In this document: in pieces, positions 23,019 to 30,337 of the stretch | How positions within the stretch are numbered: the stretch's first letter is position 1 | Layout: the number at the start of each line of letters is the position of its first letter | Source: Rhodospirillaceae bacterium | GTDB taxonomy: Bacteria > Pseudomonadota > Alphaproteobacteria > Bin65 | Assembly: GCA_026709535.1 (NCBI GenBank) | Contig: JAPOST010000199.1 | Coordinates: 1-36,545 of the forward strand | Length of the DNA: 36,545 nt | Direction: 5' to 3' | Made by a program: the position numbers and the translations under genes | Notes under the pieces: model-generated | What the model was told of the DNA's origin: nothing | Seen by the model: the letters and a program-made list of their open reading frames with translations, nothing else | Databases searched by the model: none

Positions 23019-23166
23019 TAAGGATTATGCCGAAGTCCAACTGGCGGCTGACAAGTCGTACGCCTCAGGGATGTGAAGTAGATTGATGCTGTCGTAGCTC
23101 CTGTCTTTCAAGAGGGCTTGACTTGGAGTTTGGTGCCGCGGGGAACACGCCAAAGCTTGTCAGGGC

Positions 23167-23446
23167 ATGAAAGGTTTCAATCACGAAACCGCGGATAATT
23201 CCGTTGGCGAATATGTGCGAGAGATTGTCCACACGAACGGGATCGAATCCTTCCGGACGATGCTGAAACGCGGTTGTCAGGATACCTTCCACCATTTCAG
23301 CGCCAAGCATGGCAACCGCCATGTCGGTGATTTCGCCGGTCGCCACAACAGCCGTGATGCAGATTCTGTTGACATGATGGACACCATAGCGCGGCGTATG
23401 GTTGGAAAGCAGCTGCGGTAACGGGATTTGATAGCTTGATGCGTCC
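23167..23446 (+). pseudogene. IS1595-family transposase C-terminal remnant
   Basis: About 84 residues match, from memory, the C-terminus of ISXO2/IS1595-type transposases: HETADNSVGEYVREIVHTNGIES, then FRTMLKRGCQDTFHHFSAKH, NRHVGDFAGRHN and MVGKQL. Known members read roughly GEYVR..AHTNGIESFWSMLKR.., so the catalytic-domain end is recognisable. After GKQLR there is a TAA, then RDLIA in the same frame and another stop: the family's YRDLIA stretch interrupted by nonsense. Upstream, the same frame is full of stops and lacks the DDE catalytic core. This is a dead 3' fragment. No terminal repeats were located. Confidence 0.75.
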
Positions 23447-23969
23447 GTGCCCTGGCCGTGAGTACCCGTCGTTGACTGGATGGCTATAAAGCTGCCCCCG
23501 CGTTCTGTAGTCCTGCTCTGACACGCGGCAGGTCCGGATTTTGCGCCACCTGGCGCAATCCATTGGGTCATTACAGGTCCGGAAAGCATTGCTACCAACA
23601 CGGCGGCCAGTGGGATGCTGACGCGCCTTACTGGATTCCACCGCGCAAATTTCCGGGGGCATTGTCCAGAATATCGCCGTGTATCTCCCTGCGATTATCG
23701 CCGGGGTCGGCTAGAAGCAGATCATCGCCGCTGGAGTCGCCAGCCGGCTCGTCTCAAGGTAAATCGTCTGTCTTGGGCCGCAATGTCAAGAGAGGAGCAT
23801 CATTACTTTCCAGAACCAAGGATCGCTCACGTCCCTTTCGCTTGACAGGACTGAAGTCTGGAGAACTTCTGCCGCATGCTGTCGAGGCGCCAGGCTTTCG
23901 TCCTGTTTCGCAGCCCACCAAGTTGGGTGCATGGCCTAGGTGCCATGACCGTCTGGAGATCAAGGGTTG
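23447..23969. other. gene-free stretch inside the island
   Basis: About 520 bp between the transposase remnant and the toxin-like pseudogene. Open frames on both strands are Arg/Ser/Pro-rich with no recognisable motifs and no ribosome binding sites. It is probably decayed mobile DNA. No tRNA or attachment-site repeat was seen. Confidence 0.4.
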
Positions 23970-23987
23970 ATTGACTTACATGTCAAT
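23970..23987. promoter_or_regulatory. palindromic operator candidate overlapping a start codon
   Basis: ATTGAC and GTCAAT (6-bp arms) flank TTACAT, covering the ATG at 23980 of the toxin-like pseudogene. TTGACT at 23971 could double as a -35. Autoregulated toxin-antitoxin operons usually carry such a site at their first gene. Confidence 0.35.
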
Positions 23988-24512
23988 AAGTGATGTGCTT
24001 CAGGATGCAGTTGCACGGGGCCTGCTGATCCGGGTGGAGCCAAGGATGTCGAGCGAACCGATGATCCGGGCCTTGTATGCCTCTCCGGCAGTGTACCGTC
24101 TCGTCACCGGGCCTTGGGCAAACTAGGAAGAGGAAATTCGATGCGGCAGGCTTTGGGCAGACTTCGACAGATTCGTCGAGGGGAGGGTGTTCCTGTGGCT
24201 CTGGATAACCCTTACAGCAGGCCGAGTAACGCATACTTATCCCGACTGGATCCTGCCGAGGATGAAGTGTGGGAAATTCGCAGTCGTGCTCCTCGACCGG
24301 CAATCAGGGTTTTTGGTCGTTTTGCGGGGACGGATTGCTTCGCGGCCTTGAACTGGAGGCTCAGGAAGGAACTTGGCGGGCGAGATTGGCAGGAGTTTCG
24401 GCAAGAAGTGCGCAACTGTCTGGCTGCATGGAGGAACTCCTTTTCCTCTTACGACGCATTCAAGGGAGAGACCGTCGATGAATACATCTCAGAAAAAGCC
24501 CTTTCTGTCTGA
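23980..24512 (+). pseudogene. RelE/HigB-like toxin-type protein, broken by a stop and a frameshift
   Basis: ATG 23980 opens 48 residues (MSISDVLQDAVARGLLIRVE ... LYASPAVYRLVTGPWAN) and stops at TAG 24124. The same frame continues with EEEIRCGRLWADFDRFVEGR. The protein then resumes in another frame near 24190 as VPVALDNPYSRPSNAYLSRL, DEVWEIRSRAPRPAIRVFGR, FAGTDCFAALNWRLRKELGG and ends ETVDEYISEKALSV. Read together this is a ~177-residue protein with a RelE/HigB-like C-terminus (IRVFG.FA..D.FVAL.W), carrying one nonsense codon and one frameshift. The distal part also has its own ATG at 24141 behind AGAGGA, giving a 123-residue ORF, so the RelE-like half might still be made. It overlaps the HTH gene by 35 bp. 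Recognition as one family is from memory of similar rhizobial proteins. Confidence 0.6.
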
Positions 24513-25869
24513 GGTTCTTGACGGAGAGAAAATTCCACTCGGAACGCTCTCGTATTTTCGGGAACGTTTCCGTGATCGCCTGTACGACTTGGTTGCGGAA
24601 GAATTTCTCAAGCAAGAGAAGGAAGGTAACTTGACGCGGGCTGAAGTTGCCCGACGGATCGGTCGGAGACCAGAGCAGATTACACGTTGGTTGGCCGCAC
24701 CCGGCAACTGGACTCTCGAAACAGTCAGTGACCTCTTGCTGGCGGTCGCCAAGTCCGAGCCTCAGGTGACTTTGCTGCCTCTTGAGGGAAGAACTGTTCA
24801 CAGCTGTCGCAGTGAATTATCATCAGCCTCACTCCCGAACCAGCCGGAAAGATCCTTGCCGCCCAACTCGACAATCGAGGCAAATGACAAATCAAATGAG
24901 TTTGGCTCGAGCGTCACAGCAAGAGAATTCGATCAGAGGCCAGACAAGCCCGCGGTGATTGCGCATTGCGACTGGAGCATTCGTCCTGAGAAAAGATGGA
25001 TGGCAGTTGCCGTGCGCGAAAATGATCGCTGGACAATCTCTTTACCCGAAAAGGTTCGGGACGTTGGCTCGTTAGTTGAGCGGCTTGAACGTCGAGCATC
25101 GGAACCAGGACCACTGTTCCTAGGGTTTGACTTTCCGATAGGTTTACCTGCGAATTACAGAAAAATGATCGACAAGAAAAACTTCAAAGAGGCTATACGT
25201 GCGTTTGGCGAAACTGGTTGGGAAAACTGGTTCAAGGTATGTGAGACGGCCAGTGAAATTTCAGTTCAAAGACCATTTTATCCTAACAGGCCGCGGAAAA
25301 AAGGAGAGATAAAGCAGTTCCACCTTTATAACGGCTTGAAAATACCCGACGCCGATAGCCTTCGCCGAAGATGTGAACGCCAATCAGCCGCCTGCATGCT
25401 TTTCTGGACACTTGGTCCAAACCAGGTTGGTAAGGCAGCCATCGCCGGTTGGCAGGAATTCATCAAGCCAAATCTCGACCAGATCAGCCTATGGCCATTT
25501 GACGGCTTGCTCTCCGGCCTGTTCTCTCACTCGGGGATCATTGTGGTTGAAACTTATCCAGCAGATGTCTATCGGCAAATTGGACTGCTGAAGAAACCCG
25601 AGTGGAGCAAGAAGACTCGTGAGGGTCGAAAATCTGTTGCTTCGAAACTCAACGGTTGGCTCAAAAAGCGGAACGTGTCGCCGAAGAAGGGTCTCACAAA
25701 AAAGATTGACGATGGATTTGGAAGCGACAACACGGGTGAGGACCAATTTGATGCAGTAGTGGGTTTATTGAGGATGATTGATGTAGCTGAAGGTCATTTG
25801 TCCGAAGGAGTGCCAAACGACCTTGAGGTAACGACGTGGGAAGGGTGGATGCTCGGTATGTCTACCTAG
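24478..25869 (+). CDS. HigA/XRE-like HTH protein fused to a DUF429 predicted nuclease
   Basis: 463 aa from ATG 24478, behind GGGAG and overlapping the preceding gene by 35 bp. Residues ~22-95 match small antitoxin-like HTH proteins: YFRERFRDRLYDLVAEEFLK, then NLTRAEVARRIGRRPEQITR and WLAAPGNWTLETVSDLLLAV. Residues ~96-155 are a low-complexity linker. Residues ~158-460 fit DUF429, an RNase H-fold family of predicted nucleases: HCDWS (Asp165), LFLGFDFPIGLP (Asp218), the VVETYPADVYRQIG strand (Glu358), KKTREGRK (379-386) and GEDQFDAVVGLLR (Asp422, Asp425). These acidic positions are where an RNase H-like active site would be. Codon use is more A/T-rich than in the neighbours, suggesting transfer. 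I know of no described HTH-DUF429 fusion; function is inferred only. Confidence 0.75.
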   Translation: MNTSQKKPFLSEVLDGEKIPLGTLSYFRERFRDRLYDLVAEEFLKQEKEGNLTRAEVARRIGRRPEQITRWLAAPGNWTLETVSDLLLAVAKSEPQVTLLPLEGRTVHSCRSELSSASLPNQPERSLPPNSTIEANDKSNEFGSSVTAREFDQRPDKPAVIAHCDWSIRPEKRWMAVAVRENDRWTISLPEKVRDVGSLVERLERRASEPGPLFLGFDFPIGLPANYRKMIDKKNFKEAIRAFGETGWENWFKVCETASEISVQRPFYPNRPRKKGEIKQFHLYNGLKIPDADSLRRRCERQSAACMLFWTLGPNQVGKAAIAGWQEFIKPNLDQISLWPFDGLLSGLFSHSGIIVVETYPADVYRQIGLLKKPEWSKKTREGRKSVASKLNGWLKKRNVSPKKGLTKKIDDGFGSDNTGEDQFDAVVGLLRMIDVAEGHLSEGVPNDLEVTTWEGWMLGMST

Positions 25870-26383
25870 CAACAGACACTGAGTCTGCTTTAGGTGAGAT
25901 CGTGATCTACGATGAAACCATGGGCGTGAAGATAGAGACCGGACACACGATCGACGACCAAAGTCGGGAACGGAGGGAATTCTGGCGCTGGCCGTATCCA
26001 GGATCGTGATTTCCCCTTCCGGGGCTGGACGAGTTTGAAATCAGGCAACTCCGGACGGGAGCATGAATTCCGCTGAGGCGCCGCGGCTCGACAAGGAAAA
26101 CCAGACTGGAACCGTTGGCCGCTGAAGGTCTTGCCTGACGAAAACGCCTTATCACAGAAGGCTCGAAAAACCCGTCAAATCAGCCAGATAGCAGGACGAA
26201 TTTCTAGGTGGCGACGCGAGAACAAGTCGCAATGGCGGGCAACAAGTACGCATATTATCTGGACTCGGCCAGTTGTGTGAACAGCGCAGGCCTGTCATGC
26301 GAATTGCTTTACGACGCGCGGATGATTTTGTTGATATTGGGAGATGACCGCGGCGCGTCTTGAGGAGATAGCTTGGGGATCTG
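25870..26383. other. gene-free stretch before the D-amino-acid module
   Basis: About 510 bp. The plus frame from 25870 gives a short protein-like run (EIVIYDETMGVKIETGHTID) before stops; other frames are poor. It may be a decayed gene end plus the promoter of the D-amino-acid genes. A GGGGA ribosome binding site lies just before 26384. No terminator hairpin with a T-run was found. Confidence 0.35.
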
Positions 26384-27385
26384 ATGATCAAGACACCGTA
26401 TTTGCTGTTTCTCGGCGATGCGCCGGATCAACTGGCTGCCAAGGTTGCACAGGGGATCAAGGACTGGCGGCCGGAAAATGTGGTCGGTCAGTTGCGTCTG
26501 GAGGGATGTCAGGCTGACGTCGGCATGGCCGACATGACGTTGGAAGAAGCCCGGCAAGCCGATGCCAAAACGCTGGTGATCGGCGTAGCCAATCGCGGCG
26601 GCGTGATTTCGCATCGCTGGAAGGACGTTTTGATCCATGCTTTGGAAATGGGCTATGACTTGGCATCCGGCCTCCACAACTTGTTGCGGGATGACGCCGA
26701 TCTGGTGAAGGCCGCGCAAGAGCATGGCGGTGCCTTGCACGACGTAAGGGTGCCGGATGATGACTACCCCATCGCAAAGGGCAGGCCACGGGCCGGGAAG
26801 CGCTGCTTGGCCGTTGGCACAGATTGTTCAGTCGGCAAGATGTATACTGGACTGGCCATGGATGCCGAAATGCGCCGCCGAGGTCATAGATCGACGTTTC
26901 GTCCCACCGGTCAGACAGGGATCCTGATTGCCGGTGATGGCGTCCCCCTGGATGCTGTTGTTGCCGACTTCATGGCTGGCGCTATCGAGGTTCTCACGCC
27001 CGACAACGATGCTGATCACTGGGATCATATCGAAGGCCAAGGCAGTCTGTTCCACATTTCCTATTCTGGTGTGACAATGGCCCTGATCCATGGCGGCCAG
27101 CCCGACGCCTTGATCTTGTCTCACGAACCAACCCGCAAACACCTGCGTGGCCTTTCAGGCTACCCCGTGCCGCCGCTGGAAACACTACGCGACTTGGCGT
27201 TATCGTTGGCGCGCATCGCCAATCCGTCGTGCGTTGTGGCGGGCATCTCCATCAATACTCAGCATCTTGGCGCCTCGGCTGCCGACGCTCTTTGCCGGGA
27301 GACGGAGCATCGTCTGGGTTTGCCGACAGTGGACCCGTACCGTCACGGTGCTGGTCGTCTGGTTGATGCACTCGCCACATTATGA
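26384..27385 (+). CDS. dgcN: DUF1611 protein, probable D-glutamate N-acetyltransferase (DgcN)
   Basis: 333 aa. A DUF1611-family protein: an N-terminal Rossmann-like region (TLVIGVANRGGVISHRWKDV, 63-82), then a P-loop domain with GTDCSVGKMYTG (145-156) and HGGQPDALILSHEPTRKHLR. In marine Proteobacteria DgcN has been described as the D-glutamate N-acetyltransferase that starts a D-Glu-to-L-Glu route with DgcA. The next gene here is a DgcA-like epimerase overlapping by 4 bp (ATGA), and a D-amino-acid aminotransferase follows, which makes this assignment attractive. The older annotation would be 'NAD-dependent epimerase-like, unknown function'. The family is certain; the enzyme activity is by analogy. 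Confidence 0.85.
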   Translation: MIKTPYLLFLGDAPDQLAAKVAQGIKDWRPENVVGQLRLEGCQADVGMADMTLEEARQADAKTLVIGVANRGGVISHRWKDVLIHALEMGYDLASGLHNLLRDDADLVKAAQEHGGALHDVRVPDDDYPIAKGRPRAGKRCLAVGTDCSVGKMYTGLAMDAEMRRRGHRSTFRPTGQTGILIAGDGVPLDAVVADFMAGAIEVLTPDNDADHWDHIEGQGSLFHISYSGVTMALIHGGQPDALILSHEPTRKHLRGLSGYPVPPLETLRDLALSLARIANPSCVVAGISINTQHLGASAADALCRETEHRLGLPTVDPYRHGAGRLVDALATL

Positions 27386-28344
27386 TCAAGGTGACGCCGC
27401 AATCATTTCGGCTGGCCAGGGCTTTTACGATTTCCCGTGGATCGCGCCTTGAGGCACATGTGCTGACGGTTCGGATTTCCCGGGATGGCGCGACGGGCTG
27501 GGGAGAATGTGTTCCTTACGCACGGTATCAGGAAACTCCGGAAAGCGTTGCGGCGCAGATTGAAAGCCTGCCTCACGACATTGGTCGTGTGGAGCTTCAG
27601 GAAGCCTTGCCGGCCGGCGCGGCGCGCAATGCCGTAGATTGCGCATTATGGGATTGGGAAGCCAAGAAAACTGGCACGCGAGCGTGGAATCTCGCCCGAC
27701 TTCGACCGCCGGGACCAATACCGGTCGCGTTCACCTTGTCCCTCGATACGCCGGAACAGATGGAATATGAAGCGCGGCAACATGCCGGACAGCGCCTGCT
27801 GAAGGTCAAGCTCGGCACGCCGAATGACATTCCCCGCCTGGAGGCGGTGCGCCGGGGAGCGCCAGAGGTGAAAATCATTGTTGACGCCAATGAAGGCTGG
27901 TCGGCAGCGGAATATCAGGATCTCGTACCGTATCTTGTCAATCTTGGCGTTTTGATGGTCGAACAGCCGGTACCTGCGGCAGATGACGGGCTTTTGGCGG
28001 AGATCGATCGCCTCTTGCCGGTCTGCGCCGATGAAGCCGTGCATGATCGCCGGTCGCTGCCGACGCTGGCAGGAAAGTACGACATGATCAACATCAAGCT
28101 GGATAAGACTGGGGGATTGACGGAGGCGCTGGAACTGCGCCGAGAGGCGGAAGCATTGGGCTACGGTATCATGGCCGGTTGCATGGTTGGGTCGTCGTTG
28201 GCGATGGCCCCGGCGACGTTGATTGCCCAAGGTGCGGCATTCGCCGATCTGGACGGGCCGCTGCTTTTGGCAGAAGACCGCGACCATCCATTGCATTACG
28301 ACACCGCAGGGGTTCATCCCCCGGATGTGGCCTTGTGGGGATAG
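27382..28344 (+). CDS. dgcA: enolase-superfamily epimerase, probable N-acetyl-D-glutamate racemase (DgcA)
   Basis: 320 aa. Muconate-lactonizing subgroup of the enolase superfamily with the dipeptide-epimerase active site: KxK at Lys141/Lys143 (LLKVKLG), metal ligands Asp168 (IIVDANEGW), Glu194 (LMVEQPV) and Asp217 (CADEAV), and the opposing base Lys239 (INIKLDKTGG). Two lysines on opposite faces are what a 1,1-proton-transfer racemase needs. Such proteins are often annotated L-Ala-D/L-Glu epimerase. Next to DgcN, the N-acetyl-D-Glu to N-acetyl-L-Glu reaction is more likely. Start overlaps dgcN by 4 bp; it ends 4 bp before the aminotransferase. Confidence 0.85.
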   Translation: MIKVTPQSFRLARAFTISRGSRLEAHVLTVRISRDGATGWGECVPYARYQETPESVAAQIESLPHDIGRVELQEALPAGAARNAVDCALWDWEAKKTGTRAWNLARLRPPGPIPVAFTLSLDTPEQMEYEARQHAGQRLLKVKLGTPNDIPRLEAVRRGAPEVKIIVDANEGWSAAEYQDLVPYLVNLGVLMVEQPVPAADDGLLAEIDRLLPVCADEAVHDRRSLPTLAGKYDMINIKLDKTGGLTEALELRREAEALGYGIMAGCMVGSSLAMAPATLIAQGAAFADLDGPLLLAEDRDHPLHYDTAGVHPPDVALWG

Positions 28345-28348
28345 GGAC

Positions 28349-29203
28349 ATGAGCCGGATCGTCTACGTCAATGGCGACTATCTTCCAGAAGGAGATGCAA
28401 AGGTTTCTGTCTTCGATCGAGGTTTCCTGTTTGCTGACGGCGTTTACGAAGTCACTTCGGTGTTGAACCGCAAGCTCGTCGATTTCGATGGTCATACAGC
28501 ACGCCTGCAACGGTCCCTGGATGCCCTGGACATCAAGGCCCCGGTGAACCGGGATGAATTGCTGCAGATTCATCGACAGCTTGTGACCAGGAACCAAATC
28601 GAGGATGGCTTGGTCTACCTCCAAATCACGCGCGGACCCGCTGATCGAGATTTTGTCTACCCAAAAGACGCCACGCCGTCATTGGTGATCTTTACCCAGT
28701 CGAAACCGGGGTTCGCAGATAGCCCTCAAGCCAGGACAGGCTGGACGATAATCACGGTCGAGGACCTTCGTTGGGGCCGGCGGGATATCAAGACGACACA
28801 GTTGTTATATCCATCAATGGCGAAGATGATGGCCAAGGCCGCCGGTGCGGACGATGCTTGGCTTGTGGAACAAGGGAAGATAACCGAAGGCACGTCCAAT
28901 AACGCCTACATTGTCAAGAATGGAGTCATCATTACGCGTGAGCTGTCGAATGACATTCTGCACGGGATCACTCGAGCGGCCGTCCTGCGAATGGCGGTAT
29001 CCGCCCAAATGCGCATTGATGAACGGCCGTTTACGCCGGCCGAGGCGCAAGCCGCCGACGAGGCCTTCATTACCTCAGCATCCAATTTTGTCATGCCGGT
29101 GGTAGAAATCGATGGCGAGAAGATTGGCGACGGCACGCCGGGTCCGGTCGCGCGCCGCCTGCGCGAAATTTATATCGACGAAGGCCGGAGGACGGCGATC
29201 TAG
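28349..29203 (+). CDS. dat: D-amino-acid (D-alanine) aminotransferase
   Basis: 284 aa from ATG 28349. A fold-type IV PLP enzyme that transfers the amino group from D-alanine and other D-amino acids to 2-oxoglutarate, giving D-glutamate. Marks: YVNGDYLPEGDAKVSVFDRGFLFADGVYE at the N-terminus, PLP-Lys148 in RRDIKTTQLL, ITEGTSNNAYIVKNG and DILHGITRAAVLRMA for the cofactor phosphate, and a C-terminal ITSASNFVMPVVEIDG. It is closer to D-AAT than to branched-chain IlvE (RRDIK, PVVEIDG). As the third gene of the dgcNA operon it would funnel mixed D-amino acids into D-Glu, which DgcN/DgcA then convert. Confidence 0.9.
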   Translation: MSRIVYVNGDYLPEGDAKVSVFDRGFLFADGVYEVTSVLNRKLVDFDGHTARLQRSLDALDIKAPVNRDELLQIHRQLVTRNQIEDGLVYLQITRGPADRDFVYPKDATPSLVIFTQSKPGFADSPQARTGWTIITVEDLRWGRRDIKTTQLLYPSMAKMMAKAAGADDAWLVEQGKITEGTSNNAYIVKNGVIITRELSNDILHGITRAAVLRMAVSAQMRIDERPFTPAEAQAADEAFITSASNFVMPVVEIDGEKIGDGTPGPVARRLREIYIDEGRRTAI

Positions 29204-29362
29204 CCCAGGAATGTCATGAAGCGGATTTCGCTGGGTCCCATTTCGGGTGGCCATCGATCTGGGCACAACCAATTGGGTATAGCAGCGCGGTGGTGACGGA
29301 TGCTCCTTTGGGTCGGCTCTCTCCTGCAGCGTTCAGTACACGCCGGGGCGAGGCGTATCTTG

Positions 29363-29389
29363 ACTTGTCAGGATCAAATCCTGTCAAGT
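29363..29389. promoter_or_regulatory. near-perfect 12-bp inverted repeat upstream of a COG0523 GTPase
   Basis: Arms ACTTGTCAGGAT and ATCCTGTCAAGT are separated by CAA; 11 of 12 positions pair. The repeat ends 6 bp before the ATG at 29396. There is no T-run after it, so it is not a standard terminator. It could be an operator for a dimeric repressor, or an mRNA hairpin hiding the ribosome binding site, since no good Shine-Dalgarno is visible. It does not match the Zur consensus I know. Confidence 0.6.
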
Positions 29390-29395
29390 GGCGTA

Positions 29396-30337
29396 ATGAA
29401 CATCCATAACGGGACGCAAGCCTCTATCCCGGTGACCGTGATAGGCGGCTACCTGGGCGCTGGCAAGACCACTTGCCTGAACCACCTGCTGGGTGGCGAT
29501 CACGGCTTGCGCCTTGCCGTCCTGGTTAACGATTTCGGCGCCATCAACGTTGATGCGCACCTGATTGCACAGCAAGCCGCCGACACGATCGCATTGATGA
29601 ATGGCTGCGTCTGCTGTTCGATAGCCGATGATCTGGGGGCTGCATTGACGGCGCAGGTCGAGCGGATTGATCCTCCGGAGCACGTTCTGATCGAAGCGAG
29701 CGGCGTGGCCGAGCCGGCCAAGATCGGCCGCCTGGCGGGAAACTGGCCGGGCTGCGTCATGGCGGGAATCGTCGTGCTGGCCGACGCCGTTGCCATACGC
29801 GCCCGATCTGCAGACAAGTTCGTCGGCCGTTTGGTCGTACGCCAATTACGTGACGCCGATCTTGTTGCCGTCAACAAGGTGGACTTGGTAAACGGCGCGG
29901 AACAGCAGGCGACGGTGGACTGGATCAAGACGGTGGCGCCGCATGTCTGCCTGATGGAAACGCGACATGGCGCCTTGCCCATTGAAATTCTTGGCGGTGA
30001 TTTGGCGACGGGTAAACGGCACGAAGGTGGCCCGTCGGCCCAACATCCGCTGCTATCAATGGTCTGGATTCCAGAATCTCCCGTTATTCCCGAGGTTTTG
30101 CATCGTGTCCTCAGCAACCTCGCGGATATCCATCGCGCCAAGGGGATCATCCCGACCGCTCATGGACTACGCTTGATCCAGTGGAGCAGTGGCAAATTTG
30201 CCTGTACCGTGTCACCGGGTTCGGCAACGGGATTGGTCGTGATCGGCCCTTTTTCTGCCAGCCGGAAAGCAGTTTTGCAGAGAGCTCTGGCTGCTAGCTC
30301 GGCGGTAGCGCTTTCCGCGAGCACGATGGCTGATTGA
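29396..30337 (+). CDS. COG0523/CobW-family G3E GTPase (metal chaperone type)
   Basis: 313 aa from ATG 29396; the frame is open upstream to 29300, but that part would read through a palindrome and is unlike the family. Walker A GGYLGAGKTTCLN (17-29), the metal-binding GCVCCSIADDL (CVCC at 71-74), a Walker B-like LIEASGVAEPAKI and the guanine-specificity motif VNKVDLV are all present. The C-terminal CobW domain is short. Family members deliver Zn, Co, Ni or Fe to client enzymes. The metal is unknown. Its stop overlaps the alternative TTG start of the MFS gene, so the two are coupled. Confidence 0.9.
   Translation: MNIHNGTQASIPVTVIGGYLGAGKTTCLNHLLGGDHGLRLAVLVNDFGAINVDAHLIAQQAADTIALMNGCVCCSIADDLGAALTAQVERIDPPEHVLIEASGVAEPAKIGRLAGNWPGCVMAGIVVLADAVAIRARSADKFVGRLVVRQLRDADLVAVNKVDLVNGAEQQATVDWIKTVAPHVCLMETRHGALPIEILGGDLATGKRHEGGPSAQHPLLSMVWIPESPVIPEVLHRVLSNLADIHRAKGIIPTAHGLRLIQWSSGKFACTVSPGSATGLVVIGPFSASRKAVLQRALAASSAVALSASTMAD

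Follow-up and report, generated by a model that had tools for sequence, protein, structure and literature searches.

Proteins of the DUF429 family (PF04250; COG2410/COG4328/COG4923) have been placed in clade D of the RNase H-like superfamily, with acidic residues conserved on the first strand, on later strands and in the final helix. Most of them are single-domain proteins, and in the available text of this survey, which describes a few fusions to NUDIX or RelA/SpoT domains, a fusion to an antitoxin-type helix-turn-helix (HTH) domain is not mentioned (PMC3985635). RelZ (MS_RHII-RSD) of Mycobacterium smegmatis combines a DUF429-type domain, for which RNase HII and R-loop activity was reported, with a second, regulatory or stress domain, a (p)ppGpp synthetase (PMC7591505; PMC4429107). 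Among toxin-antitoxin systems, HigBA of Streptococcus pneumoniae (PDB 6AF3/6AF4; 6AF4 is identified as HigBA in PMC7984235) has the toxin gene first and the HTH gene second, the latter overlapping the toxin end, while HipB antitoxins carry an XRE-type HTH.

In this study, we analyzed a window of 36,545 nucleotides, the whole stretch of DNA considered here, taken from a 203-contig draft assembly. Exactly as the first-pass annotation had proposed, an open reading frame of 463 aa is present at 24478-25869. It lies behind the remains of a HigB-like toxin gene. The features of the locus are as follows.

23970-23987, no strand assigned: almost perfect palindrome of 18 bp, ATTGACTTACATGTCAAT, which overlaps the ATG at 23980-23982 with which the toxin gene starts
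23980-24183, plus strand: HigB-like toxin gene, N-terminal part, interrupted at 24124-24126 by an in-frame TAG (relatives as tblastn queries, lowest E 7.6e-14)
24183-24512, plus strand: HigB-like toxin gene, C-terminal part in another frame, following a frameshift near 24183 (tblastn E to 9e-33)
24478-25869, plus strand: HTH-DUF429 fusion gene, a single open reading frame from ATG to TAG, 463 aa
24478-24792, plus strand: HTH part, residues 1-105, HipB/XRE-like, motif at about 48-87
24793-24948, plus strand: linker, residues 106-157, mostly predicted to be disordered (model pLDDT <50)
24949-25866, plus strand: DUF429 domain, residues 158-463, RNase H/RuvC-like, candidate active site D165, D218, E358, D422 and D425

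The joining of an XRE antitoxin-type HTH to DUF429 is a new combination of domains of known kinds. In RelZ, the partner domain sits at the other end, and the protein has neither an HTH nor an operator or a toxin neighbor. Unlike HipB antitoxins, the HTH is found with a HigB-like partner instead of a HipA kinase, and in contrast to HigBA, the toxin is broken and the HTH fused to DUF429, the latter in this window only.

The C-terminal domain matched Pfam PF04250 with E=8.7e-5 and 22.8 bits, just short of the 23-bit gathering cut-off. As one stand-alone DUF429 relative scored 21.6 and another was not matched, the Pfam model is weak for this subgroup. Since the C-terminal 305 residues share 36-56% identity with stand-alone relatives over the whole domain, the match was accepted as real; identity to a protein annotated as 'DUF429 domain-containing protein' was 39.7% over 300 aa. 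In sequence and topology, the domain resembles the clade D proteins (PMC3985635). A search of NCBIfam gave no match, and the PDB sequence search with the fusion as query returned 0 matches.

A structure model was confident over residues 158-463, with a pLDDT of about 96 for most of the domain, and its RuvC/RNase H-like topology bears out the RNase H fold suggested in the first-pass annotation. In the model, D165 is located at the end of the first strand (160-165), D218 just after the strand 213-217, E358 at the end of the strand 354-358, and D422 and D425 in the last helix. With this core, and with acidic residues placed both at the ends of strands and in the final helix, the modelled domain is RNase H-like. 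RuvC-type nucleases have a characteristic layout of acidic active site residues, including a D-x-x-D spacing in the last helix. The modelled placement agrees with such a site, the D-x-x-D spacing being alike. The five acidic positions named beforehand as conserved are all invariant in a set of 36 rows, and D165, D218, E358 and D425 are so in 16 divergent relatives as well, but D422, conserved in most of these, is replaced by H in two divergent rows. RNase H-like proteins dominated the Foldseek matches of the model, none of which reached E<1e-3. Fold and last-helix D-x-x-D are shared with RuvC and poxvirus Holliday-junction resolvases and with phage terminase nuclease domains, from which the DUF429 domain differs by a large insertion (about 219-350), with no significant E-value and no sequence similarity. 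The DUF429 domain is a predicted nuclease with putative catalytic activity.

For the N-terminal half, Pfam HTH_3 gave a marginal match (E=0.065), so that the proposed HMM search detected both domains by weak matches. A profile of the N-terminal HTH family matched HipB antitoxins of solved structure with E=3e-5, and stand-alone genes of this family are found repeatedly; in view of both, the weak HTH_3 match is real. Together with the homology of the DUF429 domain, this confirms the proposed antitoxin-like N-terminus joined to DUF429. When HTH and DUF429 rows were aligned together as input for the model, the HTH rows were wrongly placed by MAFFT and were dropped; consequently, the HTH part of the fusion model is a single-sequence prediction, and its quality is poor. 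The segment at about 92-151 is disordered in the model (pLDDT <50), and the linker matches the tails of the stand-alone HTH proteins, which are variable and of low complexity. Membership of the HTH in PADLOC PDC-M64 was considered and rejected, because the matches were weak, also for relatives, and the partner genes failed to match.

In all nine stand-alone HTH loci (9/9), a toxin-type gene of about 180 codons directly precedes the HTH gene and overlaps it with its end, and DUF6941 is often the third gene, after the HTH. The same toxin/HTH/DUF6941 trio is present on IMG/VR contigs, including phage contigs. The module was observed in alphaproteobacteria and IMG/VR at the loci L022-L030, L111, L113-L115, L177, L181, L183, L185, L191, L204, L206 and L209-L211. 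A model of a relative's toxin (mean pLDDT 68, core >80) had S. pneumoniae HigBA (6AF3/6AF4) as clear best PDB match, with a probability of 0.95-0.98 for the top three and a TM-score of 0.6 by target, and shows a HigB-type fold. In these relatives, a toxin of the HigB/RelE fold thus shares an operon of overlapping genes with an HTH antitoxin; compared with HigBA, they differ in the frequent third gene DUF6941 and in a probable operator placed on the toxin start codon. We found no name for this module in Pfam, PADLOC or the literature searched, and viral scans with toxin alignments and single toxins as queries yielded nothing new. A remnant of DUF6941 was not found in the window.

In the window, toxin homology detected by tblastn starts at 23971, reads through the TAG to about 24183, shifts frame there and ends at 24509. 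The RelE/HigB-like gene noticed ahead of the fusion is therefore real, given the HigB-type fold of the relative's model, but broken in this genome. Its C-terminal part is open as ORF 24141-24512. This ORF, in which the family's N-terminal part is missing, matches the genes preceding the HTH in 9/9 loci (phmmer 1e-11 to 1e-26) and keeps 10 of the 11 invariant residues of the toxin C-terminal part. Another toxin copy, at L030:988-1505, looks frameshifted near the N-terminus and stands beside an intact HTH. The intact toxin of a type II toxin-antitoxin system is missing here, owing to the TAG at 24124 and the frameshift near 24183, and with two disabling lesions the idea of a new toxin-antitoxin type did not hold. 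It is unlikely that ORF 24141-24512 still acts as partner of HTH-DUF429 as antitoxin and/or nuclease effector, in a working toxin-antitoxin or anti-phage system. The retained toxin residues, the occurrence of the module on phage contigs and the location of Rhizobiaceae DUF429 genes beside an AAA/M41 pair in an island with an integrase speak for it, but stop codon and frameshift cost the toxin the N-terminal part of the modelled fold, defence genes are absent nearby and the fusion does not recur.

The palindrome was found at 10 of 11 related loci; L114 has a degenerate copy. In the relatives it has the form TTGAC(A/T)TANATGTCAA, a near-perfect palindrome overlapping the toxin ATG. Its right arm overlaps conserved Met-Ser-Ile codons, while the left arm falls outside the gene, so that coding constraint cannot account for the symmetry. 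The 16-bp core was absent from all examined loci other than toxin-HTH loci, and the palindrome is intact in the window, where its core is the sole match in the own genome at ≤1 mismatch. In a blind IMG/VR scan with 17 palindrome bases, 47 contigs were obtained, 12 of them carrying the module, three of which were already known from an earlier IMG/VR module search; in all twelve, the palindrome is located at the toxin start codon. A DNA hairpin at this position was rejected as not better than shuffles, and the palindrome is therefore read as a probable protein-binding site. Its occurrence in the related loci and in the blind scan strongly suggests that it is the operator of the HTH, and the predicted operator is located at the operon start, as in type II toxin-antitoxin systems.

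The fusion gene has 0 lesions in 463 codons, compared with two lesions in about 180 toxin codons; at the toxin's rate, which is very uncertain as it derives from two events, about five would be expected by a rough hand estimate. Both halves retain all residues that are invariant in their own close alignments (8/8 in the HTH, 40/40 in DUF429), with one I-for-L change in a more divergent set. The broken toxin beside an intact fusion with kept invariant residues suggests that the fusion gene has been retained. The G+C content is about 0.49-0.51 inside the gene and about 0.59 around it.

As the fusion is a single example from an assembly of 203 contigs, an assembly or sequence error could have created the fusion, the toxin lesions or both. 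We regard this as decidedly improbable, since the reading frame is unbroken through the junction, frame is seldom preserved in chimaeras, and the toxin-HTH overlap, the operator and the gene order are as in the relatives. Production of two polypeptides, with DUF429 also made alone from an internal start, has a still smaller chance of being correct: by inspection, an in-frame TTG is present at residue 125 and a GTG at residue 160, but a start at GTG160 would truncate the first strand (160-165), the native start of the stand-alone genes is missing, and a good ribosome-binding site was not seen by eye.

Upstream of the locus, genes for an FAA hydrolase, a MarR protein, a periplasmic binding protein and flotillin are found, and downstream those for a DUF1611 protein, an enolase-superfamily enzyme, a class IV aminotransferase and cobW. 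The latter row, with a cobW-like gene, spans 26384-30337, and we take it to resemble a D-amino-acid/D-glutamate pathway cluster. Coding density around the locus is low. Directly flanking the fusion locus, 23041-23970 and 25870-26383 are without recognisable genes, which suggests a decayed insertion site. The downstream gene pair is present in two congeners and the upstream patch in none, so that no clean empty site could be defined. PADLOC returned weak HTH matches alone at the locus (E 0.002-0.006). A defence island was rejected on account of the metabolic neighbors and because defence genes were not found nearby; with metabolic flanks and weak PADLOC matches to the HTH, the suggested defence effector is not borne out either.

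Among 385 genomes of the class, about 20 contain the C-terminal half only and about a dozen the N-terminal half only, the stand-alone HTH proteins having 130-200 aa; the window alone has both. A second HTH-DUF429 fusion was not detected in 783 class- and phylum-level genome draws (385 + 398), nor in 11 family/order genomes, plasmids, phages or the best 80 of 249 genome-contig relatives. Within the own order, the DUF429 half is missing from all other genomes, and the congener G357 has the HTH half alone. In a phylogenetic tree, the DUF429 domain of the fusion groups with Jannaschia seohaensis (support 96/88), and the surrounding clade mixes Roseobacteraceae, Rhizobiaceae, Massilia, Methylobacterium and a planctomycete, as would be expected from horizontal spread. 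The neighbors of the Jannaschia gene encode a resolvase, the small subunit of a phage terminase and an integrase. DUF429 generally occurs on its own and frequently resides on mobile elements; as it is mobile-element cargo in the closest relatives, a role of the fusion in mobile-element conflict is possible.

In about 20 Rhizobiaceae (L033, L034, L037, L042, L049, L058, L116 and others), DUF429 belongs to a conserved island, a candidate mobile or defence island, which also holds a DUF3102-like protein, an AAA ATPase (IetA-like in PADLOC, E=1.7e-20), a separate M41 peptidase, a 776-aa protein and a tyrosine integrase. In a Peptococcaceae locus (L084:6001-8222), an unrelated XRE/HigA-like gene adjoins DUF429, with a second DUF429 fragment beyond. 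Other joins of DUF429 were seen as well, all known from open frames and not from expression. In the complete genome of Pseudooceanicola spongiae, DUF429 and a D-2-hydroxyacid dehydrogenase share one open frame (L032:5071-7122). On the minus strand of L003, L005 and L007, the open frame of DUF429 continues into a HIT domain (Pfam E=6e-15 in L005), and on the minus strand of L013, L015 and L016, DUF429 forms the end of a long open frame that also encodes a cyclase-like domain (Guanylate_cyc E=0.0014 in L013, short of the cut-off).

Our preferred, though tentative, reading, to which we give somewhat less than an even chance, is that the fusion is an autoregulated, operator-bound nuclease derived from an antitoxin-type autorepressor, and not a toxin-antitoxin pair. 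A stand-alone, horizontally mobile DUF429 gene would have been joined in frame to the end of an antitoxin-type HTH gene, thereby taking the place normally held by DUF6941 in the HigB-like/HTH/DUF6941 module, and the toxin gene would have decayed after the fusion or earlier. We infer that the fusion protein would bind via its HTH to the palindrome on the former start codon of the toxin and repress its own transcription, and that the flexibly tethered DUF429 domain may cleave nucleic acid, with R-loops, RNA-DNA hybrids or branched DNA as putative substrates. This reading is supported by the recurrence of both halves as separate genes, by the intact and unique palindrome and by the intact fusion beside a broken toxin, and further by the RuvC-like placement of the acidic residues, the RNase H-like fold matches and, by analogy, the activity of RelZ. 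It is weakened by the occurrence of the fusion in one draft genome only, by the seemingly haphazard joins of DUF429 elsewhere, by fold matches that all stay above E=1e-3, by the poor HTH model, by selection not being measurable from a single sequence, and by a likeness to RelZ that is one of analogy.

Nearly equal to it we hold the possibility that the fusion is a by-product. In this case, a DUF429 gene would have inserted after a toxin-antitoxin locus already in decay, and loss of the stop codon of the HTH gene would have joined the two; DUF429 would keep its stand-alone role, with the HTH as a vestigial leader that provides promoter and ribosome-binding site and does no targeting. The toxin is already broken, the join was seen once, coding density around the locus is low, and the joins to a 2-hydroxyacid dehydrogenase, HIT and a cyclase indicate that end-to-end joining of DUF429 may be common and meaningless. 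Against this, the invariant HTH residues are all kept and the operator is intact, and a vestigial leader would need neither. A further possibility, in which the HTH would guide the RuvC-like nuclease to palindromic operators, including those of incoming phages or mobile elements carrying the same module, and thus serve as an operator-directed weapon against related elements, is very unlikely in our estimate.

The locus probably represents a rare fusion of genes and not a new defence system. In alphaproteobacteria and on phage contigs, its analysis uncovered a conserved HigB-like/HTH/DUF6941 module whose probable operator lies on the start codon. If functional, the fusion would show how an antitoxin can outlive its toxin as built-in repressor of a nuclease, and the operator left behind would record the change from antitoxin to repressor. 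With its binding site and its catalytic residues both predicted, the fusion may also offer a simple test of the function of DUF429, a widespread and little studied family.
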